Source: Achromobacter spanius
Lineage (GTDB): Bacteria > Pseudomonadota > Gammaproteobacteria > Burkholderiales > Burkholderiaceae_B
Reading direction: 5' to 3'
DNA length: 64,000 nt
Assembly (NCBI RefSeq): GCF_029637605.1
Contig: NZ_CP121261.1
Location: forward strand, 558,001 to 622,000
Both the position numbers and the translations under genes were made by a program. Position 1 is the stretch's first letter; every line of letters begins with the position of its first letter. The notes below the pieces were generated by a model that saw only the letters and a list, made by a program, of their open reading frames with translations, was not told where the DNA came from and did not search any database. Below are positions 6,075 through 50,133 of the stretch, one piece after another.

Positions 6075-7884
6075 GCATTCGCTTACCCAGGCCGCGCAGG
6101 CGGGTTCCGCGCCCGCCTCACGCAGGCCGCTTGGCCGCGGGCTGCCGTGGTTGGCCGCCGCGTGCCTGATACTGACTGTGGCCGGCCCCTGGCTGTTCGA
6201 CACCTACTTGCTCAATGTGCTGATCAAGGCGCTGTTTTTTGCGATGGCGGCGGTGACCGTGGACGTGCTGTGGGGCTACACCGGCCATCTGACGTTCGGC
6301 CAGTCCGCCTTCTTTGGGGTGGGTGCCTATGCCGCCGGCCTGGCCTTCACGCATTACGGGTTTTCGCCCACCACCGCCGTGCTGGCCGCATTCGCGGCCG
6401 TGGGCGCCGCGGTGGTGCTGGCGCTGGTGACCGGGTGGCTGTCGTTCTATCGGGGGGCGTCGCCGTTCTTTGCGACGGTCATCTCGCTGGTGCTGCCGAT
6501 CGTGCTGATGCAGTTGGTGTTGGCCGGTGGCACCTATACCGGGTCGTCCTCGGGCCTGACGGGCTACGAGACGTTCGATCTGTCGCTCGAGGCCTGGTAT
6601 GTGATTGCGGCCGGCACGTTGTCGGTCGTGGCCTTGCTGGCGTGGGTCGTGGTGCGCAGCGATGGTGGTCGCATTCTGGTGGCGCTGCGCGACAACGAGT
6701 CGCGTTGCAGCTATCTGGGCCTGAACACCGCCCACTGGCGCATTGTGCTGCTGGTGGTGTGCGGCGCCGTCGCCAGTCTGGCGGGGTTCGGCTATGGCGC
6801 GTTCAGCGGCGTGGTGGCGCCAGAGCTCACGGGTTTCGTGTTCGGCACGGAATTGATCATCTGGGTGGCGCTGGGGGGGCGCGGGACCATCTGGGGGCCG
6901 GTGCTGGGCGCCATCCTCATCAATGTGGCGGGTTCCTACCTGAGCGGGAATCTGCCGTTCCTGTGGCAGTTGCTGCTGGGCGTGACGTTCATCCTGGTGA
7001 TCCTGCTGTTGCCGCGCGGGCTGCTGCCGCTGCTGACCGCGCCGTTTTTGCGGCGCGGCGCCACGGCCCCCGTGCCGGTGCTTGGCGTGCGTGCCGGGCA
7101 GGCGCCGCCGGCCAGCGGGACGTCGTGGGCGTTGAGCCTGTCTGGCGTCGCCAAGCGCTTCGGCAGCCTGAAAGTGCTGGAAGGCATCGACCTGCAAGCC
7201 CGGGGCGGCGAACTGGTGGGCCTGATCGGTCCCAACGGCGCGGGTAAAACCACGCTGATGCGCTGCATCGCCGATGGCGCCGAGCGGTCCGAAGGAGAAT
7301 TGGCGCTTTACGGCCAGCGCGTGTTGCAAGATGGCCCAGAGCAATGCGTGCGCTACGGCCTGGGGCGCAAGTTCCAGAACGCCAATGTGTTCGACACGAT
7401 GACGGTGGCCGAAAGCCTGCGCATCGCGACGACCTTGCGCGAACAGCCATCGTGGTGGCGGCGGTCGCCCACGCTGGATTTGCCGCCTTACGCGTTGGAG
7501 GTGCTGCGGGTGACCGGGCTGGACCAATCCCTGGCCAGCGTGGCCCGCGACCTGTCGCACGGGCAGCAACAGGCCCTGGAACTGGCGATGGTGCTGGCGC
7601 TGGAGCCGCGCATCGTGCTGCTGGACGAGCCCACGGCGGGCCTGAGCAAGGCCGAGCGGGCGCAGATCGGCCAGATGCTGTCATCGCTGGCGCACAAGTA
7701 CGGCTTGTGCTGCCTGCTGGTGGAACATGATCTGGATTTTGTGAAGGAAGTGGCGACACGGATCGTCGTCTTGCACCAAGGCCGGATCGTCATGGACGGG
7801 AGCTTTCGCGACGTCGTGGAATCCGAGCTGGTGCGTACCATTTACGCGGGCAGCGCGCAGGCTGCACAAGGAGCAGGGCAATGA
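6067..7884 (+). CDS. Fused ABC permease-ATPase (LivM-LivG type)
   Basis: A 605-residue fusion of two proteins that are usually separate. Residues about 25-335 are a LivM-type permease with roughly nine membrane segments, including VDVLWGYTGHLTFGQSAFFG and a LRDNESRCSYLGLN coupling loop. Residues about 355-600 are a LivG-type ATPase with Walker A GPNGAGKTT (about 387-395), an LSHGQQQ signature in place of the usual LSGGQ (about 497), Walker B IVLLDEPTAGLS and an H-loop VEHD. It energises uptake together with LivF. It overlaps livH by 8 bases and livF by 4 (ATGA). The frame is continuous across the joint, so this is a real fusion, not a missed stop. Confidence 0.92.
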   Translation: MTEHSLTQAAQAGSAPASRRPLGRGLPWLAAACLILTVAGPWLFDTYLLNVLIKALFFAMAAVTVDVLWGYTGHLTFGQSAFFGVGAYAAGLAFTHYGFSPTTAVLAAFAAVGAAVVLALVTGWLSFYRGASPFFATVISLVLPIVLMQLVLAGGTYTGSSSGLTGYETFDLSLEAWYVIAAGTLSVVALLAWVVVRSDGGRILVALRDNESRCSYLGLNTAHWRIVLLVVCGAVASLAGFGYGAFSGVVAPELTGFVFGTELIIWVALGGRGTIWGPVLGAILINVAGSYLSGNLPFLWQLLLGVTFILVILLLPRGLLPLLTAPFLRRGATAPVPVLGVRAGQAPPASGTSWALSLSGVAKRFGSLKVLEGIDLQARGGELVGLIGPNGAGKTTLMRCIADGAERSEGELALYGQRVLQDGPEQCVRYGLGRKFQNANVFDTMTVAESLRIATTLREQPSWWRRSPTLDLPPYALEVLRVTGLDQSLASVARDLSHGQQQALELAMVLALEPRIVLLDEPTAGLSKAERAQIGQMLSSLAHKYGLCCLLVEHDLDFVKEVATRIVVLHQGRIVMDGSFRDVVESELVRTIYAGSAQAAQGAGQ

Positions 7885-36676: not shown

Positions 36677-37633
36677 TCAGGGCCGGGCAGGGCATTCCTT
36701 GACGACGCCCCAGCCGTGGTTCGGCTCGCAAAACTGCCTGCGTGCTTCCCAGGCGCAGTCCGGACGTTCAAAGAAGCCCAGTTCCGCGCAACTGGCCAAT
36801 TCGCTTTTCAAGGTGTCGACCCAGGCCAAGGGGTTTTCCGGGGGAATCACGGTGATGCGCAGCGTGGAATGCGGCGCGGTCGACGTCGCGGGTGACATAT
36901 CGCTTGGCGTTGTGTCGGATGTCGCAGTGGAAGTGGCAATCGACGCGTCGCTTGATGCGCCGTCCGGTGCGCCGTTTGTTGCTCCGTTTGTTGCTCCGTT
37001 TGTCGTTCCGTCTGTCGCTCCGTTTGTCGCGTCGCTCGACGGCGATTCCTCATGCGGCCCATGCGGCGCCTCGCCGGGCATCGCATCCAGGGACGGCGCG
37101 GGTTGCGCGTCTGGGGCCGGCACAGGCGTTGACCCCGCCGTCTCCCAATCGCCGGGAGCGCCGTCAGTGGGCTGCAGCGGCAACCGTGTCAGCGGCACGC
37201 GGCCCGAGCCGGCCGGCGTCGCGCCAGGGCCGGTGATGCCATTGTTCGGCGCGTTCCAAGACACCACAAGCAGCACCAGCGCCGCATAGATGGCCAAGGT
37301 GTACAGCACGGTCAACGTCGCCGAGCCAACCTTGCGCCCGGTAATCGGCGCGTCGTCGTCACGACCCAACAAGGCACGCCAGCCCACCAGCGCGGCGCCC
37401 GGCGCCGAAATAAGCGCCCAGCCGATGCGGCGTAGACAGCTTGGCTGGGGCGGTGGAGGCGGGGGCGGCGGCGGGGGCGCAATGGCCTGCACCTGGGCGG
37501 CCAGCAGTTCGCGCAATGCGCGGTTCTCTTCACGCAGACGCCGGGTCTGCGCATCATCGACCGGTGCCGTGGCATCTGGATCCGTCGTGCTGTCGTGCTG
37601 CGTAGCGAAAGGATCGGGTGGCGTGGCGGTCAT
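36677..37633 (-). CDS. Hypothetical membrane protein with poly-proline and TNGA repeats
   Basis: I do not recognise this 318-residue protein. A short coiled coil (ENRALRELLAAQVQAI, about 35-50) leads into ten prolines and then a basic segment. A single clear membrane helix follows (about 105-127, LTVLYTLAIYAALVLLVVSW). The middle is low-complexity Pro/Ser/Thr/Asp, including (TNGA)n, and is presumably extracytoplasmic. The last 60 residues look folded and have four cysteines (ASCAEL, PDCAWEA, QFCEPN, KECPARP), probably two disulfides. The layout suggests an anchored periplasmic Cys-rich domain on a flexible stalk. The start is an ATG with no obvious partner gene. Confidence 0.65.
   Translation of the reverse strand: MTATPPDPFATQHDSTTDPDATAPVDDAQTRRLREENRALRELLAAQVQAIAPPPPPPPPPPQPSCLRRIGWALISAPGAALVGWRALLGRDDDAPITGRKVGSATLTVLYTLAIYAALVLLVVSWNAPNNGITGPGATPAGSGRVPLTRLPLQPTDGAPGDWETAGSTPVPAPDAQPAPSLDAMPGEAPHGPHEESPSSDATNGATDGTTNGATNGATNGAPDGASSDASIATSTATSDTTPSDMSPATSTAPHSTLRITVIPPENPLAWVDTLKSELASCAELGFFERPDCAWEARRQFCEPNHGWGVVKECPARP
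36972..37031. repeat. Five 12-bp repeats in the hypothetical membrane protein gene
   Basis: Five units of CCGTTTGTTGCT or a close variant, read on the minus strand as a TNGA-like tetrapeptide each. Copy-number change would alter the stalk length without a frameshift. Confidence 0.8.
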
Positions 37634-37917: not shown

Positions 37918-38418
37918 TCAGGCGCCGCTATCTTCGCGCCAGCCCAGCACCGCCATGGGGTTTCCGCCCTGTATCGAAAATGCCGCGACTTCGCCGCGCA
38001 CAATCGTGCCCGCCGCAATCACGCAGCCCTGGCGCAGGATCGCCCCATCCAGCAAAACGCAGTTGGCGCCGATCCAGACGTCGTCTTCAATTACGATGCC
38101 GCCCTTGCTGGGACGGAAGCCCTGCTCACGGATCGGCAAGTCACGGCGGCGGAACTCGTGGTTAGCTGGGGCAAACGTGCAGTTCGCCGCAACCGCCACG
38201 CGCGCGCCCATGCGGATACCGTTACCGGTGTAGAGCACGCAGCCGGAATTGATGACGCATTCCGGCCCGATCTCCACATCGCCCGATCCGCCTGCGGGCT
38301 TGATCTTGACAAAGGAATCGACCACGGCCCTGGGGCCGACCACGATACGTGTGCCGCGCGTGGAATCCTCGATGTCGGCAAGCGGCGACACGCGTGCGGT
38401 GGGATCGATCAGAATCAC
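37918..38418 (-). CDS. Left-handed beta-helix (hexapeptide) acyltransferase
   Basis: A 166-residue protein with hexapeptide-repeat turns throughout (DPTARVSPLADIED, VEIGPECVINSGCVLY, VIEDDVWIGANCVLLDGA) and an acyl-acceptor histidine candidate in FAPANHEFRRRD. Such LbH enzymes O- or N-acetylate sugars using acetyl-CoA. The frame is open 84 codons further upstream, but that part overlaps the CmcI-type gene. I use the GTG at 38418, 16 bases after that gene's stop with AGG ahead of it. It is the last gene of the flagellin-modification operon and probably acylates its sugar. Confidence 0.8.
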   Translation of the reverse strand: MILIDPTARVSPLADIEDSTRGTRIVVGPRAVVDSFVKIKPAGGSGDVEIGPECVINSGCVLYTGNGIRMGARVAVAANCTFAPANHEFRRRDLPIREQGFRPSKGGIVIEDDVWIGANCVLLDGAILRQGCVIAAGTIVRGEVAAFSIQGGNPMAVLGWREDSGA

Positions 38419-38434
38419 AATGTCGCCTGGCTCG

Positions 38435-39190
38435 TCAGGCCTTGCGGCGCAGAAAGCCATCCGGCGCGGATGTGACCAGCAGGCGGTCTTCCACCGAGCG
38501 GTCGATCTCGAACTCGGGGTGCTGCTTGATCCATTCCCACACTGCGGTCTTGGGGTTGTTGCCCTTGCCCCAGTGGCGGCCCGGCCATTCGTAGTCGGCG
38601 GGCATGTCTTCCACGAAGGTGTCGAAGACCACGCAGTAGCTGCCGACGCTGACCAGATCGGCGTAGGCATTCAGTTCCGCCAGCACGTGGTCGTGCGTGT
38701 GGTTCGAATCCAGGCAGACCATGATGTTCTTCTTGCCCTCGGCATGCGCGCGCACTTGCGCGATGGTCGCGGGATCAATGCTGGACCCTTCAATCAGGTG
38801 GATACGCTGCGCCAGCGGATGGGCTTCGATGGCCTTGCGGTTGTGCTCGCGGATCTCGATGTCCACGCCCACCACGTCGCCCGCGCCCAGCAATTGCAGC
38901 ATGGACGCCGACAGCATCAACGAGCCGCCGTGCGCAATACCCGTTTCGATGATCAGGTCCGGCTTCACGGCCCAGATCAGCTCTTGCATGGCCATGGCGT
39001 CCATGGGCAGTTGGATCAGCGGACGCCCGGCCCACGAGAAGTTGTTCATGTACTTGCGTTCCAGCGCCATTTGGCGCCACGCAATGGACAGCTCGCGAAA
39101 TTCCTGGTCGGTGGCGAAGCCGGCAATGCGGGCCTGCTTTTCCTGGCGGTATTCGGGGTGCGCGTCGGGCGTGGTTTCAAGGTAGGACAT
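38435..39190 (-). CDS. CmcI-family (cephalosporin hydroxylase-type) SAM methyltransferase
   Basis: A 251-residue protein of the CmcI family: WAGRPLIQLPMDAMAMQEL, then the SAM motif LIIETGIAHGGSLMLSASML, the acidic VVGVDIEIREHN, and VCLDSNHTHDHVLAELNAY with a metal-ligand-like Asp/His cluster. Family members in sugar clusters act as O-methyltransferases on deoxysugars. It starts directly after the upstream gene ends (no gap), so it belongs to the same transcript. The likely role is O-methylation of the CDP-sugar or of the attached glycan; the position methylated cannot be inferred. Confidence 0.83.
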   Translation of the reverse strand: MSYLETTPDAHPEYRQEKQARIAGFATDQEFRELSIAWRQMALERKYMNNFSWAGRPLIQLPMDAMAMQELIWAVKPDLIIETGIAHGGSLMLSASMLQLLGAGDVVGVDIEIREHNRKAIEAHPLAQRIHLIEGSSIDPATIAQVRAHAEGKKNIMVCLDSNHTHDHVLAELNAYADLVSVGSYCVVFDTFVEDMPADYEWPGRHWGKGNNPKTAVWEWIKQHPEFEIDRSVEDRLLVTSAPDGFLRRKA

Positions 39191-40018
39191 TCAGATTCCT
39201 TTGTGCAGGCGGTACTGCGCCAGAAAATTCGGGAAATAGTCGGAGAAGGCGCGCGGCGCAACGCCGCAAAGCGCCTGGATGCGGCTTACGTCCACAGCGG
39301 CAAAGGCCCATTCAGGCGAACCGGGCGCCACGTTGCAGCGGTAGCCCAGTGCCTGTTGCAACCAGTGGGCAACCTCGCGGTTGTCGACGCTTGCGCCATG
39401 CGCCACGTTGAAGATGCCGCTGGCGTCTTCGGATTGCGCAATAGCCAGTATTTGCGACACCGCGTCGTCGATGTAGAGATAGTCTTTGCGCGAAGAAAGC
39501 GAGGTGCGCAGCGTAATGCCGTTGCCGCGCGCGCCTTCTTCCAGCAATTGGTCGATAAAGCTGTCGGGCGTATCGCGCAGGCCCACGATATTGGACAGGC
39601 GCGCCACCTTGGCGCCGCGGCGCCCACAATGCAGGCACAGCGATTCACCCATCAGCTTGGACAGGTTGTAGAGGTCGCTCGGGTCATTCGGGTTGACGGC
39701 AAGCGTTGCGCTTTCGCGCGTATCGGCAGAGCCTGCGTAGACCCGCGTGCTGGACAGGTAGGTCAGGCTGTCGAAATTGCCGGCCGCAAGCAGGCTGCGC
39801 AGCAGGCAGACGTGCGCCTCCACCGTGTCCAATGGCCGGCTGCGGAAATCCGACGTCAGGCCGATGGCGTAGATGACGTGGCCCAAGGGGCGCGTCATCA
39901 AGCCAGGGTCATGGCGTGGCGGCGCCTGGCAAGGCGTGCCGTCGGTGCGCAGGCGCGCGACCAGGTGCCGGCCGATGAAGCCCGTGGCGCCCAATACCGT
40001 GACCGGCTGCTTGTTCAT
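39191..40018 (-). CDS. NAD(P)-dependent sugar epimerase/reductase (extended SDR)
   Basis: A 275-residue extended short-chain dehydrogenase. The nucleotide loop is TVLGATGFIGRHL (about residues 7-19), the catalytic Ser-Tyr-Lys is represented by YLSSTRVYAG and DLYNLSKLMGE, and a later FNVAHG block follows. In this context it most likely reduces the 4-keto group of the C-methylated CDP-sugar, or epimerises it. I start at the ATG at 40018, which overlaps the stop of the C-methyltransferase gene by one base; the frame is open 20 codons further back inside that gene. Confidence 0.85.
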   Translation of the reverse strand: MNKQPVTVLGATGFIGRHLVARLRTDGTPCQAPPRHDPGLMTRPLGHVIYAIGLTSDFRSRPLDTVEAHVCLLRSLLAAGNFDSLTYLSSTRVYAGSADTRESATLAVNPNDPSDLYNLSKLMGESLCLHCGRRGAKVARLSNIVGLRDTPDSFIDQLLEEGARGNGITLRTSLSSRKDYLYIDDAVSQILAIAQSEDASGIFNVAHGASVDNREVAHWLQQALGYRCNVAPGSPEWAFAAVDVSRIQALCGVAPRAFSDYFPNFLAQYRLHKGI

Positions 40019-41259
40019 TACTGCGCCGCGCTCTCGATGGACAAGGACGGAATGGCCGTGACCAGCTTCGCATGCCATTCACGGCGCGCGTAGTCCAGCT
40101 GCGCGGACACCTCGGTCTTCAAGTTCCAGGGCAGGATCAGGATGTACTCGGGCATGTCTTCCCGAAGCTTGGCTTCCGCGACGATGGGAATGTGGCTGCC
40201 GGGCAGGTACTTGTCTTGTTTGGCGGGGTTCAGGTCCACCACGTAGGCCAGCAGGTCGGGGCGCACGCCGGCAAAATTCAGCAGCGTATTGCCTTTGGCG
40301 GCCGCGCCATACGCGGCGATGCGCTTGCCGCTGCGGCGCAATTCCACCAGGAAGGCCAGCAGGTCGTTCTTGACGCGCTCCGCCTGTTCCTGAAAGCGCG
40401 AATAGAACGCGGGGCCGGTCATGCCGGCCTGCTGCTCTTCGGCCAGGGTGCGCGCCACCTCGGCGGTGACCTCATGCTTGCCGGTGTCCAGGCGTTGCGC
40501 AAAGACGCGCAGGCTACCGCCGTGGGTGGAAAGAGGTTCTACGTCGAACACCGCCAGCCCGTTGGCGGCAAAGATCCGCGACACGGCGGTCAGCGACAGG
40601 TACGAGTAATGCTCGTGGTAAGCGGTGTCGAACTGGCTTTCCTGCACCATGCGCAGCAAGTGCGGGAATTCAAACGTGGCAACACCCTGGGGCTTGAGCA
40701 GCGCCGCAAAGCCCGAGACGAAATCGTTGATGTCCGGCACGTGCGCCAGCACATTGTTGGCGGCGATCAAGTCCGCCGCGCGGCCCTGTTCGGCCAACTC
40801 GTCGCCAAGTTCCACGCCAAAGAACCGTTGCACGATGTCGATGCCGCGCTCGCGCGCGGCTTGCGCGGTGCTGGCGGTGGGTTCGACCCCATAGCAGGGG
40901 ATGCCGGCCGCCTGCACGTACTGCAGCAGGTAGCCATCGTTGGCGGCGATTTCGGTGACCATGCTGCCGGCGTTCAGACCGAACCGGCCGATCATCTCGT
41001 CCACATAGCGGCGCGAGTGCGCCAGCCAGGAAGACGAAAACGAGCTGAAGTAAGCGTAGTCGTCGGTGAAGAGGGCTTCGCGGCCGGCATGGTCTTCGGT
41101 CTGGACCAGCCAGCACGTTTCGCACACCAGGATGCGCAGCGGAAACCAGGTCTCGGGACCGCGCAGGGCGGTGGCGCTCAGGTAGGCGTTGGACGGGGGC
41201 GCGTGGCCCAGGTCCAGAAAGGGCAGGCGCAATTCAGCCTGGCAATGACGGCACTTCAC
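40018..41259 (-). CDS. NDP-sugar C-methyltransferase
   Basis: A 413-residue three-part enzyme of the TylC3/NovU type. An N-terminal zinc-binding domain begins KCRHCQAELRLPFLDLGHAP with further cysteines in LVCETCWLVQ. A SAM-binding methyltransferase domain (about 85-200) has VTEIAANDGYLLQYVQ and AANVLAHVPDINDFV. A C-terminal C-methyltransferase domain has IAAYGAAAKGNTLLNF. These enzymes add a methyl group to a carbon next to the 4-keto group of NDP-4-keto-deoxysugars. It starts with GTG and overlaps the epimerase gene by four bases. It is the step that makes the predicted sugar branched. Confidence 0.88.
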   Translation of the reverse strand: MKCRHCQAELRLPFLDLGHAPPSNAYLSATALRGPETWFPLRILVCETCWLVQTEDHAGREALFTDDYAYFSSFSSSWLAHSRRYVDEMIGRFGLNAGSMVTEIAANDGYLLQYVQAAGIPCYGVEPTASTAQAARERGIDIVQRFFGVELGDELAEQGRAADLIAANNVLAHVPDINDFVSGFAALLKPQGVATFEFPHLLRMVQESQFDTAYHEHYSYLSLTAVSRIFAANGLAVFDVEPLSTHGGSLRVFAQRLDTGKHEVTAEVARTLAEEQQAGMTGPAFYSRFQEQAERVKNDLLAFLVELRRSGKRIAAYGAAAKGNTLLNFAGVRPDLLAYVVDLNPAKQDKYLPGSHIPIVAEAKLREDMPEYILILPWNLKTEVSAQLDYARREWHAKLVTAIPSLSIESAAQ

Positions 41260-41813
41260 AGTGCGACTCCCGGAAATGCAGGGTCCAGGCGGGGGTGTTG
41301 CTGATCACGCTCGGACACTTGGGTAAGGGGAAGGGGCCAAGCGATACCCAGCCGGGCGTCCTGGAAGTGCAGGCCGGCCTCGGACTGGGGCGCATACGGC
41401 GCGGAATGGCAATAGAGCATGTCGACGTCATCGGTCAGGGTTTGAAAACCGTGAGCGAAGCCTTCCGGGATCAACAGCGCGCGGCCGTTGTCGGCGGACA
41501 GGCGTTCGGCATGCCATTGAAGAAAGGTGGGAGACCCCTGGCGCACATCCACGGCAACATCCCAGACGGCGCCACGGATGCAACTGACAAGCTTGATCTC
41601 GGCATGGGGCGGCAGTTGGTAATGCATGCCGCGAACGGTGCCGGCCTGGGCGGTGTAGGTGTGGTTGACCTGCTCCATGCCCCCGGTCCAGCCGCAGGCG
41701 CGCAGGTCGGCACCATCAAACAGTCGGGCCAGAAAGCCGCGCGCGTCGCCACGGGGATGGCGTTGCACGATCTTCAAGCCGGCAAGCGGCGTGTCCAGGA
41801 TGTCCAGGCTCAT
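41256..41813 (-). CDS. dTDP-4-dehydrorhamnose 3,5-epimerase family protein
   Basis: A 185-residue cupin of RmlC/RfbC type. It has the N-terminal PRGDARGFLARLF, the central VNHTYTAQAGTVRGMHYQ with the catalytic His, DVAVDVRQGSPTF and FAHGFQTLTDD. RmlC acts on dTDP-4-keto-6-deoxyglucose. No dTDP genes are present here, while CDP-glucose genes flank it, so I infer action on CDP-4-keto-6-deoxyglucose, epimerising C3 and/or C5. I start at the ATG at 41813 in an ATGA overlap with rfbG; the frame opens 12 codons earlier. Confidence 0.87.
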   Translation of the reverse strand: MSLDILDTPLAGLKIVQRHPRGDARGFLARLFDGADLRACGWTGGMEQVNHTYTAQAGTVRGMHYQLPPHAEIKLVSCIRGAVWDVAVDVRQGSPTFLQWHAERLSADNGRALLIPEGFAHGFQTLTDDVDMLYCHSAPYAPQSEAGLHFQDARLGIAWPLPLTQVSERDQQHPRLDPAFPGVAL

Positions 41814-42880
41814 AGCCGCGCCTCGTACAGATCGATATCGGCGTTGCACAGCGCGCGGGCGTCTTCGCCCGCGTCAAAGCGGCGATACCAGTCCATGCTG
41901 CGCGTTACCGCCTGTGCCAGCGGCCAGCGCGGCGTGACCTGAAGCGTGGCGCGCGCCTTGGCCGTGTCCAGCGTCAGCAGGCCCGCTTCATGCGGGCCGT
42001 CGATGTGCTCGGCATAGCATGTGCGTCCGCGGCCATAGGCGTCTTGCGCCAGGTCCACCACGGTACGAACCGCCGCCGCCTCGGCAGAGTCGGGGCCAAA
42101 ATTGTAGGCATCCGCCAGGGCCGAGTCGGCCCACAAGGCTTGGGCCAGCGTCAGGTAACCCGCCAGGGGTTCCAGCACATGCTGCCACGGCCGCACGGAA
42201 TCCGGCCGCCGCACATGCAGCTCGCCGTCGCGTTGCCAGGCGCGCACCGCGTCCGGCAGCAAGCGGTCCACGGACCAGTCCCCGCCGCCGATGACATTGC
42301 CCGCGCGCGCGGTCGCGACCGATACGCCTTGTGCCCGAAGGAAGGCATCTCGGTACGACGCGATGACCAGTTCGCTGGCCGCCTTGCTGGCGCTGTAGGG
42401 ATCGTGCCCGCCCAGCGTGTCGCTTTCGCGGTACGGGTACGGCCATTCGTTGTTGCGGTAGACCTTGTCGGTCGTGACCATGACCGCCACGCGCGCGGAC
42501 GGCGTGGCGCGCAGCGCATCGAGCAGATGCGCCGTACCCATGATGTTGGTGGCGAATGTGTCCACCGGCTGCGCGTAGCTGGGCCGCACCAAGGCCTGCG
42601 CGGCCAGGTGCAGCACGATCTCGGGCTGGGCGGCCACGACGTGTTCACGCAGCGCGGCGGCGTCGCGGATATCGCAATAGCAGCTTTTGATCAGGTCGCC
42701 AACGCGGGCGGCTTGATACAGGCTGGGCTCGCTGGCGGGGGGCAGGGCGATACCGGTAACCTGCGCGCCAAGGCGATGCAGCCACAGGGCCAACCAGCTT
42801 CCCTTGAAGCCGGTATGCCCGGTCAGCACGACACGCTTGCCGCGCCAGAACGCGGCGCTGGGGATCACCAGACTTTCCAT
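41810..42880 (-). CDS. rfbG: CDP-glucose 4,6-dehydratase
   Basis: A 356-residue extended SDR. The NAD loop is VVLTGHTGFKGSWLALWLHR, characteristic of CDP-glucose 4,6-dehydratases. The catalytic area has VMVTTDKVYRNNEW and HDPYSASKAASE (Tyr-Lys), followed by ARAGNVIGGGDWSVDRLLPD and RPWQHVLEPL. It converts CDP-glucose to CDP-4-keto-6-deoxyglucose. I use the ATG at 42880 with GCAAGG upstream; a GTG seven codons earlier is also possible. It overlaps the end of rfbF by 16 bases. Also known as ddhB or ascB in other species. Confidence 0.93.
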   Translation of the reverse strand: MESLVIPSAAFWRGKRVVLTGHTGFKGSWLALWLHRLGAQVTGIALPPASEPSLYQAARVGDLIKSCYCDIRDAAALREHVVAAQPEIVLHLAAQALVRPSYAQPVDTFATNIMGTAHLLDALRATPSARVAVMVTTDKVYRNNEWPYPYRESDTLGGHDPYSASKAASELVIASYRDAFLRAQGVSVATARAGNVIGGGDWSVDRLLPDAVRAWQRDGELHVRRPDSVRPWQHVLEPLAGYLTLAQALWADSALADAYNFGPDSAEAAAVRTVVDLAQDAYGRGRTCYAEHIDGPHEAGLLTLDTAKARATLQVTPRWPLAQAVTRSMDWYRRFDAGEDARALCNADIDLYEARL

Positions 42881-43635
42881 GGCGCCTTGCCCGTGCTCCA
42901 CAGCGATTCCAGCAGGTTCTTTTCACGCAGGGTGTCCATCGGCTGCCAGAAGCCCAGGTGTTCAAAAGCATGCAGCTCGCCGTCGCGGCTAAGCGATTCC
43001 AGCGGGCCGGCTTCCCAGGTCGTGTCGTCGTCATCGATCAGGGACAGCACGCTGGGCGACAGCACGAAAAAGCCGCCGTTGATCAGGCCGCCATCGCCGC
43101 GCGGCTTTTCGGTAAAGCCGGTCACGCGGTCACCGTCGCGGCGCAATGCGCCGTAGCGTCCGGGCGGCTGCACGGCGGTGACCGTGGCGGCCTTGCCATG
43201 TTTGCGATGAAAGGCGATCAGTGCGCTGATGTCGATGTCGGCCACGCCGTCGCCATAGGTGAAGCAGAATGCCTCGTCTTCCTTCACGTAGTCCGCCACG
43301 CGCTTCAGGCGGCCGCCGGTCATGGTCGTTTCACCCGTGTCCACGAGCGTCACGCGCCAAGGCTCCGCCTTTCGCTGGTGAACTTCCATGCGGTTGTCGG
43401 CCATGTCGAAGGTCACATCCGACATGTGCAGGAAGTAGTTGGCGAAGTACTCCTTGATCATGTAGCCCTTGTAGCCGCAGCAGATCACGAAGTCGTTCAC
43501 GCCGTGGGCGGAATAGGTCTTCATGATGTGCCACAGGATGGGCCGCCCGCCGATCTCGATCATCGGCTTGGGGCGCGTGTGGGTTTCTTCAGAGATCCGG
43601 GTGCCCAGGCCCCCGGCAAGAATGATGGCTTTCAT
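42865..43635 (-). CDS. rfbF: Glucose-1-phosphate cytidylyltransferase
   Basis: A 256-residue nucleotidyltransferase that makes CDP-glucose from CTP and glucose-1-phosphate. The signature is MKAIILAGGLGTRISEETHT followed by RPKPMIEIGGRPIL; CFTYGDGVADID and GRYGALRRDGDRVTGFTEKP complete the active site. It overlaps the stop of the glycosyltransferase gene by four bases (ATGA), and rfbG follows directly. This pair fixes the operon's sugar as CDP-linked. Also known as ddhA or ascA. Confidence 0.94.
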   Translation of the reverse strand: MKAIILAGGLGTRISEETHTRPKPMIEIGGRPILWHIMKTYSAHGVNDFVICCGYKGYMIKEYFANYFLHMSDVTFDMADNRMEVHQRKAEPWRVTLVDTGETTMTGGRLKRVADYVKEDEAFCFTYGDGVADIDISALIAFHRKHGKAATVTAVQPPGRYGALRRDGDRVTGFTEKPRGDGGLINGGFFVLSPSVLSLIDDDDTTWEAGPLESLSRDGELHAFEHLGFWQPMDTLREKNLLESLWSTGKAPWKVW

Positions 43636-46600
43636 GCTTGGGATTCGCACCAGGTATTGAACATGCCGCGCAGGGCGGTTTCGAACTTGCGGGCGAACGC
43701 GGGTTCGTCCATCAAGGGGCTGGCGTGCATTTCAGCGCGCAGGCCGGCACGGGTGCGGGCCAGCGTCGGCAAGTCACTGGCCAGGGCCACGACCTTCTGG
43801 ATGTATTCCTCTTCGGTCTGGGCGATCCATTCCGGGCGGCCGATGCCGTTCAGGACGGAACTGCCGATGCGGCCAACGCTGGGGCGGCTGGCCAGCGTGA
43901 CGTAGGGCACACCCATATAGAGCGTTTCCACCAGCGTGACGCCCGAGTTGTGCGGGAAGCAGTCCAGGCCGATGTCCATGTTGCGCAGGACATTCCATGG
44001 GGGCGATTCCCAGCCGATCAGCAGCCGTTCGCGCTCGATGCCTTGGGCCATGAAGCGGCCAGCCAGCTCTTCACGCATGGGGCCGTCGCGATAGCTGTTG
44101 CTGTTGACCACCAAGCGGGCATTCGGCAGACGGCGCAGAATATCCGACCACACCCGCACCACCTTGTCGTTCATGCGGATCGCACGCGTCAGGCTGCCCA
44201 GCGTGATGTAGCCGTTCTTCAGCGCGGGAAGCTCGCCGCAGTCGCCCATCGTTGTGCCTGCGCGATAGATGAAATTGGTGTCGGCCAGGCGCCAGGGCTT
44301 TTCCGAGAACAAGGCTTCGGAGCCGGTGGGCGCCATGACTTCATCGCTCATGATGTAGTCGATGGCATTCAGGCCGGTGGTATAGCCGAAGCCAAGCCAG
44401 GTCAGCGAAACCGGAGCCGGCTTGCGGGCGAAGACGCCCAGGCGGTTGCCGCCCGTGTGGCCGGCGACATCGATAAGTATGTCGATGCCGTCGGCGCGAA
44501 TGCGCTCCGCCAGTGCGCTGTCGCTCATGCCGGCGGTCGGCGTCCACTGATCGAAGTAGCGTTCAAAGCGTGCGGTGACCGCGTCTTTCGCCACGAATTC
44601 GGCATAGGCGCAGAGTTCGAAGGCCTCGCGATCATGGTTGGCCAGCAGGGGCTCGATAAAGTAATTGCCCGAATGCTGGCGAAAATCCGGCGATACGTAG
44701 GCTACGCGAATGCGGCGGCTCGTATCACGCTTGTTCGTGTGCGCCTGCCACGTCGCGCGCAGTGCTTCGCAGTGCGTGCGATTGTATTGGCGGTATGCCT
44801 CGAACACTTCTTCGGCGCTGGCGCTCGGCGAGTAGTTCAGGGCAAACAGCAGGTTGTTGTGGGGAATAAGCGCCTTGGGGGCAATGGATACCGCGGCCCT
44901 TGCGGCGGCGACCGCGCCTTCGGCGTCGCCCCGGTCCATGAGGATCTTGCTGAGATTGGTCCTGGCCTTTTCTTGCAGGGGATCCAAAGCCAAGGCGGTC
45001 AGGCAGCTTGCCTGCGCCTCTTTGTAGCGCAGCTCCGCGCATAGCGCGTCGCCCAGCACGCCGTGGGCATTCGCATCCTTGGGGGCAAGCTCTACCGCGC
45101 GGCGCGCGGTGCCGATCGCTTCAGACGTGCGCGTCAACGCGGTAAGGCAAGACGCCAGGATGATGTAGCACTGAGCCCTGGCGGGCGCCAGGTCCAGCAT
45201 CTGCAACGCGGCTGCGAGGGCCTCCTGGAAGCGGCCGGTATTGCACAGGGTGACAGCCAGCGGTTCCCACGCGGCGGACGCGCCCGGCACCGTCTTGGCC
45301 AGTTGCCGGGCCAAGGCCTCGGCCTTGTCGAATTGGCGCTCGTTCAGCAGGTCCTGGATACGCATCGCCATGGATTCGGCGGAGGAGGGTAGCCCGCCTC
45401 GCATCGCGTTGGCGGACAGTATCCGTTGGTTCAGGCATTGGCGTGCCAAGGCGCCGCTATACAGTCCGAAGAACTGCGCCTGGCCGCCGCTTGCGGACAG
45501 GGCTTCACCAAGCATGGACGCCCATGACGCCGCCGAACCCTGACACAGCCCATAGCGTTTGAGCAAGCCCAGGAATTCAAGCAGGCTCGACGTATCCTGG
45601 GTGATTCCCTCTTCGGTCGAAGCGGGGGCGGTATTCACCTGTAGCAGCGGCATGCCCTCGCCAAGGCGGCGGGCCATCTCGCGCTGGTTTTCCGACAACA
45701 CCAGCTTCACAGGCTCGTGCCACAGGTTGAAGCAGGTTGGCGTCGGGACCGAACCCGGCTCGAGTTCTGAGACTGCAACGCAAGGCAGCGGACGGGAGGG
45801 CGCGTCGTCGTCCCGATCGTAAGGCCCGGCATCCAGGCAGTAGTGGACGAGGTCGTGCTCCATCAGCGTCAGCAACGATTTGTCCAGCAGCTTGCGGGCT
45901 GCCGAATCGTCCAGTCCTTCCGCATGCATGAACACGGCGACCAGCGTCGTGTAGGGCAAGGAACCGGGCCAGGCGTGCCACAGTGTGTCCAACAGCCTGA
46001 CCATATGCGGTTCCGTGGTCACCAGGCCACGGGCCAGGTGGTTCACATACGTGGCTCCCTGCTCCTGGCCGTTGGCGGCAAGACGTTGCGCGCCACTGGC
46101 CCAGCGCAGGTCTTTCATGCGGGCCAGATCGGGACGCGGCTTGGTTTGTTCAGCGTTTGTCTGCGTGGTGAACAGGCTTTGGCGGAAGCCGCGTCCCGTC
46201 GCGAAGTCCAGGTATTGCTGTTTGACGGTCGCAGGCTGCCCCATCGTAAGCAGGCTATTCGTCAACGAAACGTTCTGCCCCATGTGCAGCGGAATTTCCG
46301 CCAGCGCCTGGGCATCACCCACATAGCCCAGGCCCGCTTGTGCGGCTCGTCCGGCAAACTCGATGAAGTAGCACGGGTTGCAGGCGAACGGGTCAACGGT
46401 GGCTTGGGTCTGCCCGTCCAACGCGCGCTGGACCTGGGCGGCAACGACGGCCAACTGATTCGCCATCGGATTGGCGCCGGAGACGCCTTCCGTGAACAGC
46501 GTCAGCGCGGCGGTCGCGCTGCTTCGAAGTTGCTCTTGCGAGTGCGCGGCATGCCCGTGCAACAGAATGGCGTCTCGAACGATTTCCTGCGCCTTGGCGC

Positions 46601-47060
46601 CTGGGTATACGTGGTAATCCACATACAGGACGCCATTCGTCGTGAGCAGCTGGCCGCAGCGCTCAAGCAAGGCTTGGGCGTGTTCGGCTGGCAAGTAACT
46701 ATAGAGGCCCGTCGCAATGATGTAATCGAACGGCCCCTGTTCCGGCCCCAGGTTGTCGTAACCCTGCGCCAGCAGCGTGACATTGGCCACACCCAACGAG
46801 GCCGCCATCTGCTGGCCTTGCCCGATAGCGGCTTCCAAGGCATCAATGCCGATGATCTGGGCCTCGGGGTAGGCCAGGGCAAAGGGGAACAGGCCTTCGC
46901 CAGTGCCGCAGCCCAGGCTGAGCACCCGCGAATGTTCCAGCGCTGGCGCTGTCACTCCATATAGATAGGCGGTTGCCCGCAAGTGAATAGGAGAGTGGCT
47001 GGGGGCAAGAAGTCCCGGTTCGGCGATCGCCTGGCGGTGAAAATAGGCCGGATTCGACAT
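43632..47060 (-). CDS. Fused lysine-methyltransferase-like / TPR / SPINDLY-type O-glycosyltransferase
   Basis: A 1142-residue protein with three parts. Residues about 20-200 are a SAM methyltransferase (VLSLGCGTGEGLFPFAL, then DYIIATGLYSYLP). The next part (to about 520) fits the regulatory and winged-helix domains of rickettsial-type protein lysine methyltransferases. TPR helices run from about 590 to 770. From about 780 comes an OGT/SPINDLY glycosyltransferase (RVAYVSPDFRQHSGNYF, DGIDILIDVAGHTGGNRLG, LTWLGFGYTTGLNAIDYIMS, then HNSGVTLVETLYMGVPYVTL). It lies directly downstream of fliC and heads the CDP-sugar operon. I infer that it glycosylates, and may methylate, flagellin before export. 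The FNQLYK-like segment of OGT reads GSLTRAIRMNDK here, so the donor may differ from UDP-GlcNAc. Confidence 0.85.
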   Translation of the reverse strand: MSNPAYFHRQAIAEPGLLAPSHSPIHLRATAYLYGVTAPALEHSRVLSLGCGTGEGLFPFALAYPEAQIIGIDALEAAIGQGQQMAASLGVANVTLLAQGYDNLGPEQGPFDYIIATGLYSYLPAEHAQALLERCGQLLTTNGVLYVDYHVYPGAKAQEIVRDAILLHGHAAHSQEQLRSSATAALTLFTEGVSGANPMANQLAVVAAQVQRALDGQTQATVDPFACNPCYFIEFAGRAAQAGLGYVGDAQALAEIPLHMGQNVSLTNSLLTMGQPATVKQQYLDFATGRGFRQSLFTTQTNAEQTKPRPDLARMKDLRWASGAQRLAANGQEQGATYVNHLARGLVTTEPHMVRLLDTLWHAWPGSLPYTTLVAVFMHAEGLDDSAARKLLDKSLLTLMEHDLVHYCLDAGPYDRDDDAPSRPLPCVAVSELEPGSVPTPTCFNLWHEPVKLVLSENQREMARRLGEGMPLLQVNTAPASTEEGITQDTSSLLEFLGLLKRYGLCQGSAASWASMLGEALSASGGQAQFFGLYSGALARQCLNQRILSANAMRGGLPSSAESMAMRIQDLLNERQFDKAEALARQLAKTVPGASAAWEPLAVTLCNTGRFQEALAAALQMLDLAPARAQCYIILASCLTALTRTSEAIGTARRAVELAPKDANAHGVLGDALCAELRYKEAQASCLTALALDPLQEKARTNLSKILMDRGDAEGAVAAARAAVSIAPKALIPHNNLLFALNYSPSASAEEVFEAYRQYNRTHCEALRATWQAHTNKRDTSRRIRVAYVSPDFRQHSGNYFIEPLLANHDREAFELCAYAEFVAKDAVTARFERYFDQWTPTAGMSDSALAERIRADGIDILIDVAGHTGGNRLGVFARKPAPVSLTWLGFGYTTGLNAIDYIMSDEVMAPTGSEALFSEKPWRLADTNFIYRAGTTMGDCGELPALKNGYITLGSLTRAIRMNDKVVRVWSDILRRLPNARLVVNSNSYRDGPMREELAGRFMAQGIERERLLIGWESPPWNVLRNMDIGLDCFPHNSGVTLVETLYMGVPYVTLASRPSVGRIGSSVLNGIGRPEWIAQTEEEYIQKVVALASDLPTLARTRAGLRAEMHASPLMDEPAFARKFETALRGMFNTWCESQA

Positions 47061-47197
47061 GAGTGCTTGTAACGGGAAGGCGCTGGGCCTGTGGGTGGAG
47101 TCTCGATGATTCTACGAACTGCCCCCATCCTTCATTCCGTGAATCAGCGTCGGAATTCCGCGCCACTTTCCCGAAAGAGGCCGCTTGGCGCGACAGA

Positions 47198-47225
47198 CGA
47201 AAAAAAACCCGCTGAAAGCGGGTTT
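47198..47225 (-). terminator. Intrinsic terminator of fliC
   Basis: On the minus strand AAACCCGC-TTTCA-GCGGGTTT forms an 8-bp stem followed by a long T run. It stands about 95 bases after the fliC stop and before the glycosyltransferase gene. The modification operon therefore needs its own promoter or read-through. Confidence 0.9.
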
Positions 47226-47318
47226 CTTGAGATGGCCAGGCCCGGCGCGAAGGACCGGTACTGGCCGCCAGCCGGGGAAACCGAAGTTTCCCCCGCGGGT
47301 TCGTGTCTTTGCCGAGAA

Positions 47319-49007
47319 TTAACGCAGCAGCGACAGAACCGTTTGCGGCACTTGGTTGGCTTGCGCCAGAACCGAGGTACCAGCTTGTTGCAGGATCTGA
47401 GCCTTGGACATGTTCGACACTTCCGTGGCGTAGTCGGCGTCTTGAATACGCGAACGAGCGTTGGACAGGTTGTTGACCACGTTGTTCAGGTTCGAGATCG
47501 TCGATTCCAGACGGTTCTGCACAGCACCCAGTTCGCCGGTCAGCTTGTCCAGCTTGGTGAAGGCAGCGTCCAGCGTCTTCAGCGGATCGGTGGTCTTCGT
47601 GCCCTTGCTGGTGTCTTCCGTGGTCAGCTTGCCCGAGCTGTTGACCTTGGCTTCAGCACCAACCTTGGCTTCGTAGTCGCCCGTGCCCGTGCCGCTCTTG
47701 ACCGTGGCCTTGCCCGTGTTGGGGTCAACGGTGTAGGTCGTGTCGAACGTGTCGGTCGTGGTGAACGTGCCCTTGTCGTCAACGTACGTGTTGGTCGACT
47801 CGCCGCTGGTGAAGCTGACGCTGGCGCTGGTGATGCCTTGACCCAACGTGATGATCACGTCGTCGGCGGTGGCGTTGGAATTCACCGCAGCCAACAGAGC
47901 ATCCGAAGCGATGGTGTTGGTGAAGGACAGTTGAGCACCCGTACCCGTGTTGGAGTACGTCTTGCCACCGATCGACACCGACGAGTTGCCGGCGCCGCCG
48001 CTGCCGTTCGAGGCGGCGGTCATGACGGTGCCCAGCGTGGCAGCGGTGGCGCTGTTGCTGTTGGTGGTCAGGTTGCCAGCGGCATCCAGGTAGGCGTCTT
48101 GGCCGCCGACCGTAACCTTGCCCGTAGCGTCGACTTCGAACGAGGTCGAAGCGGAGCCGTTGGCGTGGGTGTAGGTGCCGGTGGCGGTGCCGGTGGCCGG
48201 GCGCAGCGAGGTCGCCAGAGCCGTAACAGCGGCAGCGTTCGAAGCCGACTTGTCGGTGAACGTGAAGTTCTTGTTGGCGGCGTCGTACGTGTAGGTCACG
48301 CCGGTGGCGCCAGCGCCAACGCTGACGGTGTTGCCGTTTTCCAGCTTGGCGAAGGTTTGGTCAGCCGTGGCAGCAGCGTGCGTGGTGGTGACGGTCCAGT
48401 CGTTGCCGACGGCGGTGCCACCAGCAGCTTGCAGGTCGGACACGGTGGCCGAACGGTTTTGGGTCACGCCCGAGCCGTTGACGTTGAAGCCGTCCAGACC
48501 CAGCGTCTTGACGCTGATTTCCGACAGGTTCAGGGTGATCGTTTCGCCGTCGTTGGCGCCAACTTGCAGCGTCAGGGGCTTGGCCGAATCCGACAGAACC
48601 TTCACGCCGTTGAAGTCGGTTTGTTCCGAGATGCGGTCGATGTCCGACAGACGTTGGTTGATTTCGTCTTGCATCGAGTTCAGCTGTTCTTGCGAGTAGC
48701 TGCCGTTGGCGGCTTGCACCGACAGTTCGCGAACACGTTGCAGGTGGGTGTTGACTTCGGAGGCGGCGCCTTCCGTCGTCTGAGCCAGCGAGATACCGTC
48801 GTTGGCGTTACGAGCGGCTTGGGTCAGGCCCTTGACGTTCGCGGTGAAGCGGTTGGCAATGGCCATACCGGCGGCGTCGTCCTTGGCGCTGTTGATGCGC
48901 AGGCCCGACGACAGGCGTTCGATGGCGGTACCCAGGGAAGATTGCGACTTGTTCAGGTTGTTCTGAGCAACGAGCGACAAGTAGTTGGTGTTGATAACTG
49001 CAGCCAT
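47319..49007 (-). CDS. fliC: Flagellin
   Basis: A 562-residue flagellin. The conserved N-terminal D0/D1 region (MAAVINTNYLSLVAQNNLNK, then RLSSGLRINSAKDDAAGMAI) and C-terminal region (ARSRIQDADYATEVSNMSKA, then LAQANQVPQTVLSLLR) are intact. The middle (about 175-465) is variable, rich in Thr, Ser, Asn and Gly and free of cysteine: the surface-exposed D2/D3 part, with many possible O-glycosylation sites. I start at the ATG at 49007, preceded by GGGAG; the frame opens 11 codons earlier. It has its own sigma28 promoter and terminator. The sugar operon with an OGT follows on the same strand. Confidence 0.96.
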   Translation of the reverse strand: MAAVINTNYLSLVAQNNLNKSQSSLGTAIERLSSGLRINSAKDDAAGMAIANRFTANVKGLTQAARNANDGISLAQTTEGAASEVNTHLQRVRELSVQAANGSYSQEQLNSMQDEINQRLSDIDRISEQTDFNGVKVLSDSAKPLTLQVGANDGETITLNLSEISVKTLGLDGFNVNGSGVTQNRSATVSDLQAAGGTAVGNDWTVTTTHAAATADQTFAKLENGNTVSVGAGATGVTYTYDAANKNFTFTDKSASNAAAVTALATSLRPATGTATGTYTHANGSASTSFEVDATGKVTVGGQDAYLDAAGNLTTNSNSATAATLGTVMTAASNGSGGAGNSSVSIGGKTYSNTGTGAQLSFTNTIASDALLAAVNSNATADDVIITLGQGITSASVSFTSGESTNTYVDDKGTFTTTDTFDTTYTVDPNTGKATVKSGTGTGDYEAKVGAEAKVNSSGKLTTEDTSKGTKTTDPLKTLDAAFTKLDKLTGELGAVQNRLESTISNLNNVVNNLSNARSRIQDADYATEVSNMSKAQILQQAGTSVLAQANQVPQTVLSLLR

Positions 49008-49116
49008 GTTTAGGCTCCCAAGAGAGAAAGGCTTCTTCAAACCGGGCAGCGGGGCCGCCCATCGTGTTAACGGGAGAATTCGCTTTCTTGCGTCTTCGAA
49101 TTTCTCCGTTGTCAGG

Positions 49117-49326: not shown

Positions 49327-50082
49327 TCAAATAATCTGCGCGATCTGCCCTTCCAGCGGCAGTTCCTGCCAGGCCATCTCTTTCAACTTGGCCCGTATCC
49401 GCGCCGTCGCCTGTGACCTCAACTGGCACACCCGCGCCTCGGTCACATTCATGATGGCGCCGATTTCTTTCAAATTCAGCCCCTGCTCGTAACACAGCGA
49501 CAGCAACAACTTTTCCCGATCAGGCAAGGCATCAATCGCCTGCACCAGCGCCTGACGGAAATCACCAGCCAGTAACGCATCCAGCGGATTCCCACCGGCC
49601 GAGCCGTGGTTCAGCGTGGCGGTCCAGTCGGATTGGCCGGAGGCGGAGTCGGGTTCGGTGGTGAAGTCTTCGTAATGCACGATCTGCACGCCTTGGGCGT
49701 CGTGCAGCAGGGATTGGTATTCCCCGATCGGCATCTCAAGCTGCGCGGCGATCTCGGCTTCAGAAGGCGCGCGCATCAGGCGTTGTTCCAACTGCTGGAT
49801 GGCTTGTTCGATCTTGCGCGCCTTGGTGCGGACGCTGCGCGGCAGCCAGTCCTGGCCGCGTAGCTCGTCCAGCATCGCGCCACGAATACGGGTCGTGGCG
49901 TAGGTCTCGAATTGGGCGTCTGCGGTTTCCTGATAGCGCCTTACGGCGTCAAGCAGGCCGATCATGCCGGCCTGTATCAGGTCGTCGAGCTCAACACTGG
50001 CGGGTAGCCGGGCGAGCAATTGCAGGGCCAGCTTCCGCACTAGCGGGGCATATTCGACCAAGCTGTCATCTGCGTGGGGCAT
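49327..50082 (-). CDS. fliA: Flagellar sigma factor FliA (sigma28)
   Basis: A 251-residue sigma70-family factor that directs RNA polymerase to late flagellar and chemotaxis promoters. Region 2 has LPASVELDDLIQAGMIGLLD and RIRGAMLDELRGQDWLPRS; region 4 has LPDREKLLLSLCYEQGLNLK and a DNA-binding helix ending VCQLRSQATARIRAKL. I prefer the ATG at 50082 (MPHADDSLVEYAPLVRK), whose distance to the first conserved block is like that of other FliA proteins. The only start further out is a TTG at 50133. Neither has a good ribosome-binding site. It is divergent from flhD and would be held by FlgM, which is not in this window. Confidence 0.93.
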   Translation of the reverse strand: MPHADDSLVEYAPLVRKLALQLLARLPASVELDDLIQAGMIGLLDAVRRYQETADAQFETYATTRIRGAMLDELRGQDWLPRSVRTKARKIEQAIQQLEQRLMRAPSEAEIAAQLEMPIGEYQSLLHDAQGVQIVHYEDFTTEPDSASGQSDWTATLNHGSAGGNPLDALLAGDFRQALVQAIDALPDREKLLLSLCYEQGLNLKEIGAIMNVTEARVCQLRSQATARIRAKLKEMAWQELPLEGQIAQII

Positions 50083-50133
50083 TGCGGGAATGTCAGGCTG
50101 TGTCCATCGTGACGCATCGTCGGACGTTGTCAA

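Follow-up and report, generated by a model that had tools for sequence, protein, structure and literature searches.

The window analyzed here, a 64,000-nucleotide stretch of the 6.47 Mb Achromobacter spanius genome (contig NZ_CP121261.1, positions 558,001 to 622,000), contains eight close-set genes beside the flagellin gene fliC. We propose that these genes probably constitute a flagellin glycosylation operon, which would make a cytidine diphosphate (CDP)-linked sugar of the vinelose type, to be attached to FliC by a fusion protein containing a glycosyltransferase family 41 (GT41) domain. The proposal was made because the enzyme set fits, and because the same seven sugar genes adjoin fliC in Azotobacter. 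CDP-vinelose is CDP-6-deoxy-3-C-methyl-2-O-methyl-L-talose, and was reportedly found in A. vinelandii by Okuda, Suzuki and Suzuki in 1967-68. To our knowledge, no gene has so far been linked to CDP-vinelose and no role assigned to vinelose, of which we found no mention in the open-licence literature.

What we observed directly is which genes are present, how far they are conserved, and their linkage to flagellin; from this we infer the product structure, the donor and the acceptor. RfbF and RfbG belong to families with an established function in the synthesis of CDP-4-keto-6-deoxyglucose, and would supply this intermediate. The RmlC-type enzyme would epimerize it, probably to an L-sugar, the TylC3-type enzyme would place a methyl group on C3, adjacent to the 4-keto group, and the short-chain dehydrogenase/reductase (SDR) would reduce C4. 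The CmcI-type enzyme would O-methylate the sugar, and the hexapeptide (LbH) enzyme would probably O-acetylate it, giving CDP-vinelose, an acetylated form of it, or a closely related stereoisomer. While flagellin is still in the cytoplasm and awaiting export, the GT41 domain would move the sugar to Ser/Thr residues of its outer domain. By calculation from the formula, a vinelose residue would add about 174 Da to flagellin, and an acetylated one about 216 Da. All of the enzyme classes needed for CDP-vinelose (CDP, 6-deoxy, 5-epimerization, 3-C-methyl, 4-reduction, O-methyl) were found in the operon, with the SDR role and the positions of epimerization and O-methylation being predictions. The enzymes and the comparative evidence favor a 6-deoxyhexose on CDP that is C-methylated, O-methylated and probably also acylated, in support of a preliminary description of the locus, where the product was given as a branched, probably O-methylated or acylated 6-deoxyhexose carried on CDP.

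Azotobacter was sought through the V/Fe nitrogenase subunit AnfG/VnfG, which was present in 7 of 398 genomes of a Pseudomonas-like family, four in one genus (g238) and three in another. The C-methyltransferase was found in only two of these seven genomes, G371 (74% identity to the window protein) and G332 (73%), which both belong to g238. In G371, RfbF, RfbG (2858804-2859826), RmlC, the C-methyltransferase (2857012-2858232), LbH, SDR and CmcI form a single block, followed by PhyH and TylF-type genes, and fliC and a TPR-GT41-GT2 gene lie on the opposite strand, ending 0.4 kb from the block, all within 14 kb. Identities to the window proteins are 80% for RfbF, 65% for LbH, 64% for RfbG, 63% for RmlC, 55% for CmcI and 46% for SDR. 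The sole CDP-glucose 4,6-dehydratase of G371 above the cut-off sits in this block, so that a CDP-6-deoxy sugar in this bacterium would most simply be made here. A protein named from Azotobacter matches the G371 CmcI at 100% identity, and G371 is alone among the four g238 genomes in having two AnfG/VnfG genes, although three genomes of a neighboring genus also have two; we regard G371 as probably A. vinelandii. In the second genome, G332, a related cassette lies beside GT41 and fliC; its SDR-like gene is a different one, LbH has no match in it, and a second C-methyltransferase-like gene is present. The last two genes of the Azotobacter cassette encode a PhyH-type dioxygenase (L107, 7573-8457) and a TylF-type methyltransferase (6800-7576).

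The occurrence of the operon was examined in 43 Achromobacter genomes, including the source genome. The C-methyltransferase (E < 1e-140) was present in 15 of these, adjacent to the GT41 fusion in all 15 and to fliC in 14; in the exception, G001, no fliC lies within the 58.9 kb examined of a 109-kb contig. The full-length fusion is present in 19 of the 43 genomes, always accompanied by RfbF and RfbG, and the full seven-gene sugar set in ten, the window included. The gene order fliC, GT41 fusion, RfbF/RfbG recurs in other Achromobacter species, which argues that it is no chance arrangement.

The flagellin type follows the island, and FliA does not. FliC of 13 island genomes has a median identity to the window protein of 86.4% (80.6-90.8%), compared with 63.3% (40.7-80.1%) in 14 genomes that lack the fusion, the ranges only just separating (U = 182, one-sided p = 5.6e-6). 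For FliA, the two groups do not differ in identity (medians 92.2 and 92.5%, p = 0.37), and Ser and Thr make up 28.6% of the FliC outer domain in island genomes and 22.3% in those without the fusion (p = 2.5e-4); because the genomes are related, these p-values are indicative only. The 14 genomes comprise 13 with a standalone gene resembling protein-lysine methyltransferases (PKMTs) and G020, in which GT41 is unfused, and the FliC and FliA tests omit three rows with other fusions, the two Azotobacter rows, G001, G016, and ten genomes without a strong match. Transfer to FliC by the operon's own glycosyltransferase, as supposed in the preliminary description, is favored by this linkage, which is not proof of transfer. 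The cryo-EM flagellin 7sqd, which we take to be the Achromobacter filament of a published study, is 100% identical over 559 residues to FliC of G033, a genome with a standalone PKMT-like copy and no GT41 glycosylation island, and it therefore neither supports nor refutes glycosylation. The available text of the Achromobacter filament paper mentions glycosylation only within its references (PMC8931119).

Reading of the ORFs bore out the earlier account of eight same-strand genes: on the minus strand, fliA and fliC are followed by the eight, with overlaps of 1-16 bases and a largest gap of 16 (Table 1). The names RfbF, RfbG, RmlC-like, TylC3-type, SDR, CmcI-type and LbH given there were likewise all confirmed by family and structure searches, and a single scan of the genome contigs returned one locus. 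RfbF and RfbG both score above curated equivalog cut-offs, as expected of a CDP-6-deoxyhexose pathway, and RfbG is the only CDP-glucose 4,6-dehydratase above the cut-off in the whole source genome. The epimerase scores slightly below the TIGR01221 cut-off (151.4 versus 155.75 bits), and in the alignment with its structure matches it retains the HYQ, K, FAHGF and D positions of RmlC enzymes. The C-methyltransferase contains Zn-binding, S-adenosylmethionine (SAM) and C-terminal domains, and both the AH and YxEH motifs, as expected of a TylC3-type sugar 3-C-methyltransferase. With a glycosyltransferase and sugar genes adjoining fliC, the locus has the gene content of a flagellin glycosylation island. 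The LbH start is a GTG, and an alternative, longer ATG ORF extending to 38670 runs into CmcI. In four genomes the C-methyltransferase has an in-frame TGA, which was considered as a case of recoding; this was rejected, the TGA being the normal stop of a shorter clade.

Table 1. Features of the fliC region, in window coordinates; the likeliest starts were chosen for RfbF (43635), RfbG (42880), RmlC (41813), SDR (40018) and LbH (38418)
Feature	Coordinates	Strand	Support
GT41 fusion, 1142 aa, candidate flagellin glycosyltransferase	43632..47060	-	family and structure matches
RfbF, glucose-1-phosphate cytidylyltransferase	42865..43635	-	TIGR02623 476.6 bits, cut-off 300.25, E 1.7e-143
RfbG, CDP-glucose 4,6-dehydratase	41810..42880	-	TIGR02622 470.1 bits, cut-off 278.45, E 4.4e-141; 1rkx E 1.7e-103
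RmlC-family 3,5- (or 5-) epimerase	41256..41813	-	PF00908 E 3.3e-58; RmlC structures, best E 2.3e-38
TylC3/TcaB9-type sugar 3-C-methyltransferase	40018..41259	-	PF08421/PF13489/PF08484; 4rv9 E 1.9e-69, 5t64, 3ndi
SDR, proposed 4-ketoreductase	39191..40018	-	PF01370
CmcI / rhamnosyl O-methyltransferase family, proposed sugar O-methyltransferase	38435..39190	-	PF04989 E 1.7e-91; CmcI 2bm8 E 2.7e-6
Hexapeptide (LbH) acyltransferase, proposed O-acyltransferase	37918..38418	-	PF00132
fliC, flagellin	47319..49040, likely start ~49007 (562 aa)	-	PF00669/PF00700; cryo-EM homologue 7sqd E 7.5e-219
fliA, flagellar sigma factor	49327..50133	-	FliA models above cut-off
Intergenic region: hairpin and T-run, conserved promoter-like block (TAGAAT)	47061..47318	-	13-locus alignment

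Variants of the cassette bear on the role of the SDR. Five Achromobacter islands (L087-L090, L095) contain a DegT aminotransferase and no SDR. Across 68 related loci, with DegT counted at > 45% identity, SDR (21 loci) and DegT (14 loci) never co-occur, and 33 loci have neither (Fisher p = 0.003, the loci not being independent). This mutual exclusion fits action of both on the same 4-keto group, and supports assignment of the SDR as a 4-ketoreductase. In four of the five DegT islands, WbqC accompanies DegT, and a 4-amino-C-methyl sugar on flagellin is predicted for them. Four more fusion islands (L091-L094) contain RfbF/RfbG and no C-methyltransferase, suggesting another CDP-sugar.

Several observations count against a CDP-vinelose-type sugar on flagellin. 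For the Achromobacter source strain, both the sugar product and the flagellin glycan are predicted from gene content, and the species of G371 is itself inferred. Two of the four g238 genomes lack the C-methyltransferase, and both also lack an RfbG above the cut-off. We know of no report of acetylated CDP-vinelose. The additional PhyH and TylF-type O-methyltransferase genes of the Azotobacter locus make the 2-O-methyl group assignable to more than one enzyme. The Azotobacter GT41 protein is built differently, lacking the methyltransferase domain, having an extra GT2 domain, and keeping a Lys where the fusions have Arg, and flagellin transfer in Azotobacter may differ from that in Achromobacter. 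The co-variation of FliC with the island may mirror co-transfer of neighboring genes, among genomes that are related and with the ten lacking a strong match left out.

Further points of this kind came from 399 Burkholderiales genomes, 50 of which contain the C-methyltransferase at E < 1e-80. Two of these are Achromobacter, and the other 48 loci were compared over ~10 kb on either side, some being shortened by contig ends, with SDR and PKMT matches < 60 bits excluded. RfbF and RfbG are present in 38 of the 48 loci. Only 8 contain flagellin and 14 a GT41 catalytic domain, counted with the catalytic part alone (a TPR-containing query gave 15). The complete seven-gene set occurs in six of the loci, four with GT41, two of which also have flagellin; among the six is a contig of 6.8 kb, too short to show neighbors. 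At L137, all seven genes are part of a polysaccharide locus that also has four GT2 genes and a PF04464 gene, so that the cassette alone does not specify flagellin. The cassette resembles a module for nucleotide-sugar synthesis, and where the sugar goes would be set by the partner transferase, here the GT41 protein beside fliC.

It is possible, though we consider it fairly unlikely, that the operon glycosylates flagellin with another C-methyl-6-deoxyhexose, of other stereochemistry or with the O-methyl group not at C2. The low identities of SDR and CmcI to their Azotobacter counterparts are consistent with this, since regio- and stereochemistry may differ, as are the TylF-type methyltransferase gene added in five of the nine nearest islands, and the difference in GT41 protein between Achromobacter and Azotobacter. 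Against it, the enzyme classes are identical throughout, and the C-methyltransferase is 74% identical. Virenose (3-C-methyl-6-deoxy-D-gulose) was also considered as the product and rejected; its donor is linked to guanosine diphosphate (GDP) and it bears no O-methyl group.

For the protein proposed to transfer the vinelose-type sugar, the earlier label of OGT-type glycosyltransferase holds for its GT41 domain, but the protein is a fusion: a PKMT-like N-terminal domain (residues ~20-470), missed in that account, and TPRs (~560-760) precede the SPINDLY-like GT41 domain (~769-1142). The GT41 domain matches PF13844 (E 2.8e-38), with SPINDLY the nearest among solved structures (E 1.1e-86), and it keeps the active-site-loop His, the RQHS His of the fusion aligning with that of THS in SPINDLY. 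SPINDLY has a Lys that aligns with K842 of OGT, at the nucleotide-phosphate position. Neither the window fusion nor the 18 other Achromobacter fusions has this Lys, all 19 having Arg in its place and FPHN in place of FPY. The solved bacterial OGT 5djs likewise lacks a Lys at this position, and we therefore did not treat the residue as defining GT41. Donors of GT41 enzymes include GDP-fucose for SPINDLY and UDP-GlcNAc for OGT. The Arg/FPHN change may mark use of a CDP donor, because all 19 fusions pair with CDP-sugar genes, a correlation only, as the 19 belong to a single group, the trait also occurs in four related proteins, and Lys is retained in the GT41 of Azotobacter.

The N-terminal (METHYLTRANSFERASE) domain of the fusion is homologous to Rickettsia PKMT2 (5doo, E 4.2e-33) and PKMT1 (5dnk, 9.5e-31), and in the window copy the canonical SAM motif GCGTG and an acidic residue are kept. 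These features, together with the standalone relatives beside fliC in 22 of the 43 genomes, would suit a bifunctional protein, a single polypeptide that glycosylates flagellin and in addition methylates its lysines (or the glycan). We judge this unlikely: the SYNxxPGW motif, kept in PKMT1, PKMT2 and 22 of 22 standalone copies, is lost in 19 of 19 fusions (DYHVYPGA in the window). Motif I is also odd in some fusions (most clearly G001; also G007, G035 and G027), although it varies among the Rickettsia and standalone enzymes too. Methyltransferase activity of the fused domain is thus doubtful, and a docking role appears as likely, because in the 13 nearest fusions this domain is less conserved (50-58% identity to the window) than GT41 (56-68%). 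The standalone proteins, 9 in genomes with the fusion and 13 in genomes without it, are located in L064-L069, L071-L077 and nine island loci (e.g. L078, 16084-17739; L084, 15445-17091), mostly as frames of ~550-600 aa, and are candidate enzymes, of the same type as the Rickettsia PKMTs, for lysine methylation of flagellin. A more complete version of the proposal is tentative and less likely than not: the cassette would be the CDP-vinelose operon, and vinelose a flagellin O-glycan in both genera. In Achromobacter, its attachment would be the work of a GT41 enzyme whose donor had changed to a CDP-sugar, and which would recognize flagellin through the PKMT domain that it captured.

Much less probable is synthesis of a sugar for lipopolysaccharide, capsule or another glycoconjugate, with fliC adjacent by coincidence; L137 and the 40 of 48 outside loci without flagellin within the compared stretches point that way, whereas in Achromobacter the C-methyltransferase gene keeps company with the fusion and, with one exception, fliC, the flagellin type tracks the island, seven of the eight outside loci with flagellin also have the GT41 catalytic domain (eight of eight with the TPR-containing query), and the operon has no GT2 gene. 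A Pfam-type family search of the eight ORFs found no polymerase, flippase or initiating transferase, with GT41 the sole sugar transferase. The preliminary description was correct about this absence, but its argument from missing lipid-linked assembly genes against an O-antigen locus is weak, because L137 holds the seven genes in a polysaccharide locus. The synteny search suggested there for fliC-OGT-rfbFG was productive, finding the order in Achromobacter, and fliC, GT41 and cassette together in two Azotobacter genomes and in 7 of the 48 outside loci.

The operon was also said to follow fliC directly, which is right for position but probably not for transcription. Between the fliC stop (47319) and the operon start (47060) lie 258 bases, and in 13 of 13 aligned loci (the window and 12 relatives; L083, with a spacing of 1.2 kb, was omitted) a GC hairpin with a T-run lies 3' of fliC, followed by a conserved block and TAGAAT before the operon. 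The terminator-like hairpin and the conserved block make it likely that the operon is transcribed separately. A generic promoter and terminator scan did not list the hairpin, and its counts in the region were not above those of shuffles (3 versus 2.4 and 8 versus 11.3, respectively). A search with a sigma-28 pattern gave no match; the sequence TAAAGATT-N11-GCCGTAAT upstream of fliC was spotted by eye, without scoring against chance.

A proline-rich hypothetical protein without a Pfam match is encoded between the island and lpd (36677-37633), and most of the Achromobacter loci examined have a homologue of it close to fliC. Elsewhere in the source genome (G000, 639204-639614), outside the window, there is a second Flagellin_N match in a 426-aa frame, possibly FlgL.

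If the proposal is correct, the orphan nucleotide sugar CDP-vinelose would gain a testable pathway in a tractable and harmless soil bacterium and a named acceptor, and CDP-sugars would join the donors of the OGT/SPINDLY family. The comparison also points to a candidate family of flagellin lysine methylases beside fliC in about half of the Achromobacter genomes.

Comparison with known systems shows both shared and distinct features. CDP-vinelose shares with the predicted product the CDP carrier and the 6-deoxy, 3-C-methyl and O-methyl groups, and is not known to be acetylated. The C-methyltransferase has the same domains and motifs as TylC3 (mycarose) and TcaB9 (4rv9, 3ndi), matched over residues 2-386. 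TylC3 and TcaB9 act on dTDP-4-keto-2,6-dideoxy sugars, whereas the Achromobacter partner enzymes use CDP, and a family search found no 2- or 3-deoxygenation enzyme in the operon. The fusion shares the GT41 domain and loop His with SPINDLY and OGT, differing in the Arg and FPHN substitutions and in the predicted CDP donor, and its N-terminal domain is homologous to the Rickettsia PKMTs but has lost SYNxxPGW.

Flagellin islands with GT41-methyltransferase fusions or with CDP-4-keto-6-deoxyglucose genes are already published. In the available text on enterobacterial islands, 194 strains have GT41 enzymes carrying a methyltransferase domain, and island type 23, in 4 strains, contains the CDP-4-keto-6-deoxyglucose genes (De Maayer and Cowan 2016, PMC4875605). 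Like those islands, that of Achromobacter has a glycosyltransferase and sugar genes beside fliC, and a SPINDLY-type GT41 fused to a methyltransferase domain. As far as that text goes, the enterobacterial islands differ in lying between fliC and fliA, whereas that of Achromobacter lies on the far side of fliC, contains a C-methyltransferase, and belongs to a group in which all 19 fusions are paired with CDP-sugar genes. The main text of PMC4875605 contained no match for C-methyltransferase, virenose or Achromobacter. In Dickeya dadantii, two transferase genes lie between fliA and fliC, one being of the O-GlcNAc-transferase type, and FliC mass is lowered when either gene is lost (PMC6637903). 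An O-GlcNAc-transferase-type gene likewise adjoins fliC in Achromobacter, but the portion of that paper available names a transaminase and other sugar genes for the Dickeya island, and no CDP/C-methyl set. We found no paper in the open-licence literature connecting flagellin with a C-methyltransferase or with vinelose. What is new here is that an Azotobacter genome, too, has the full set of seven sugar genes next to fliC and GT41, with its only RfbG above the cut-off among them.

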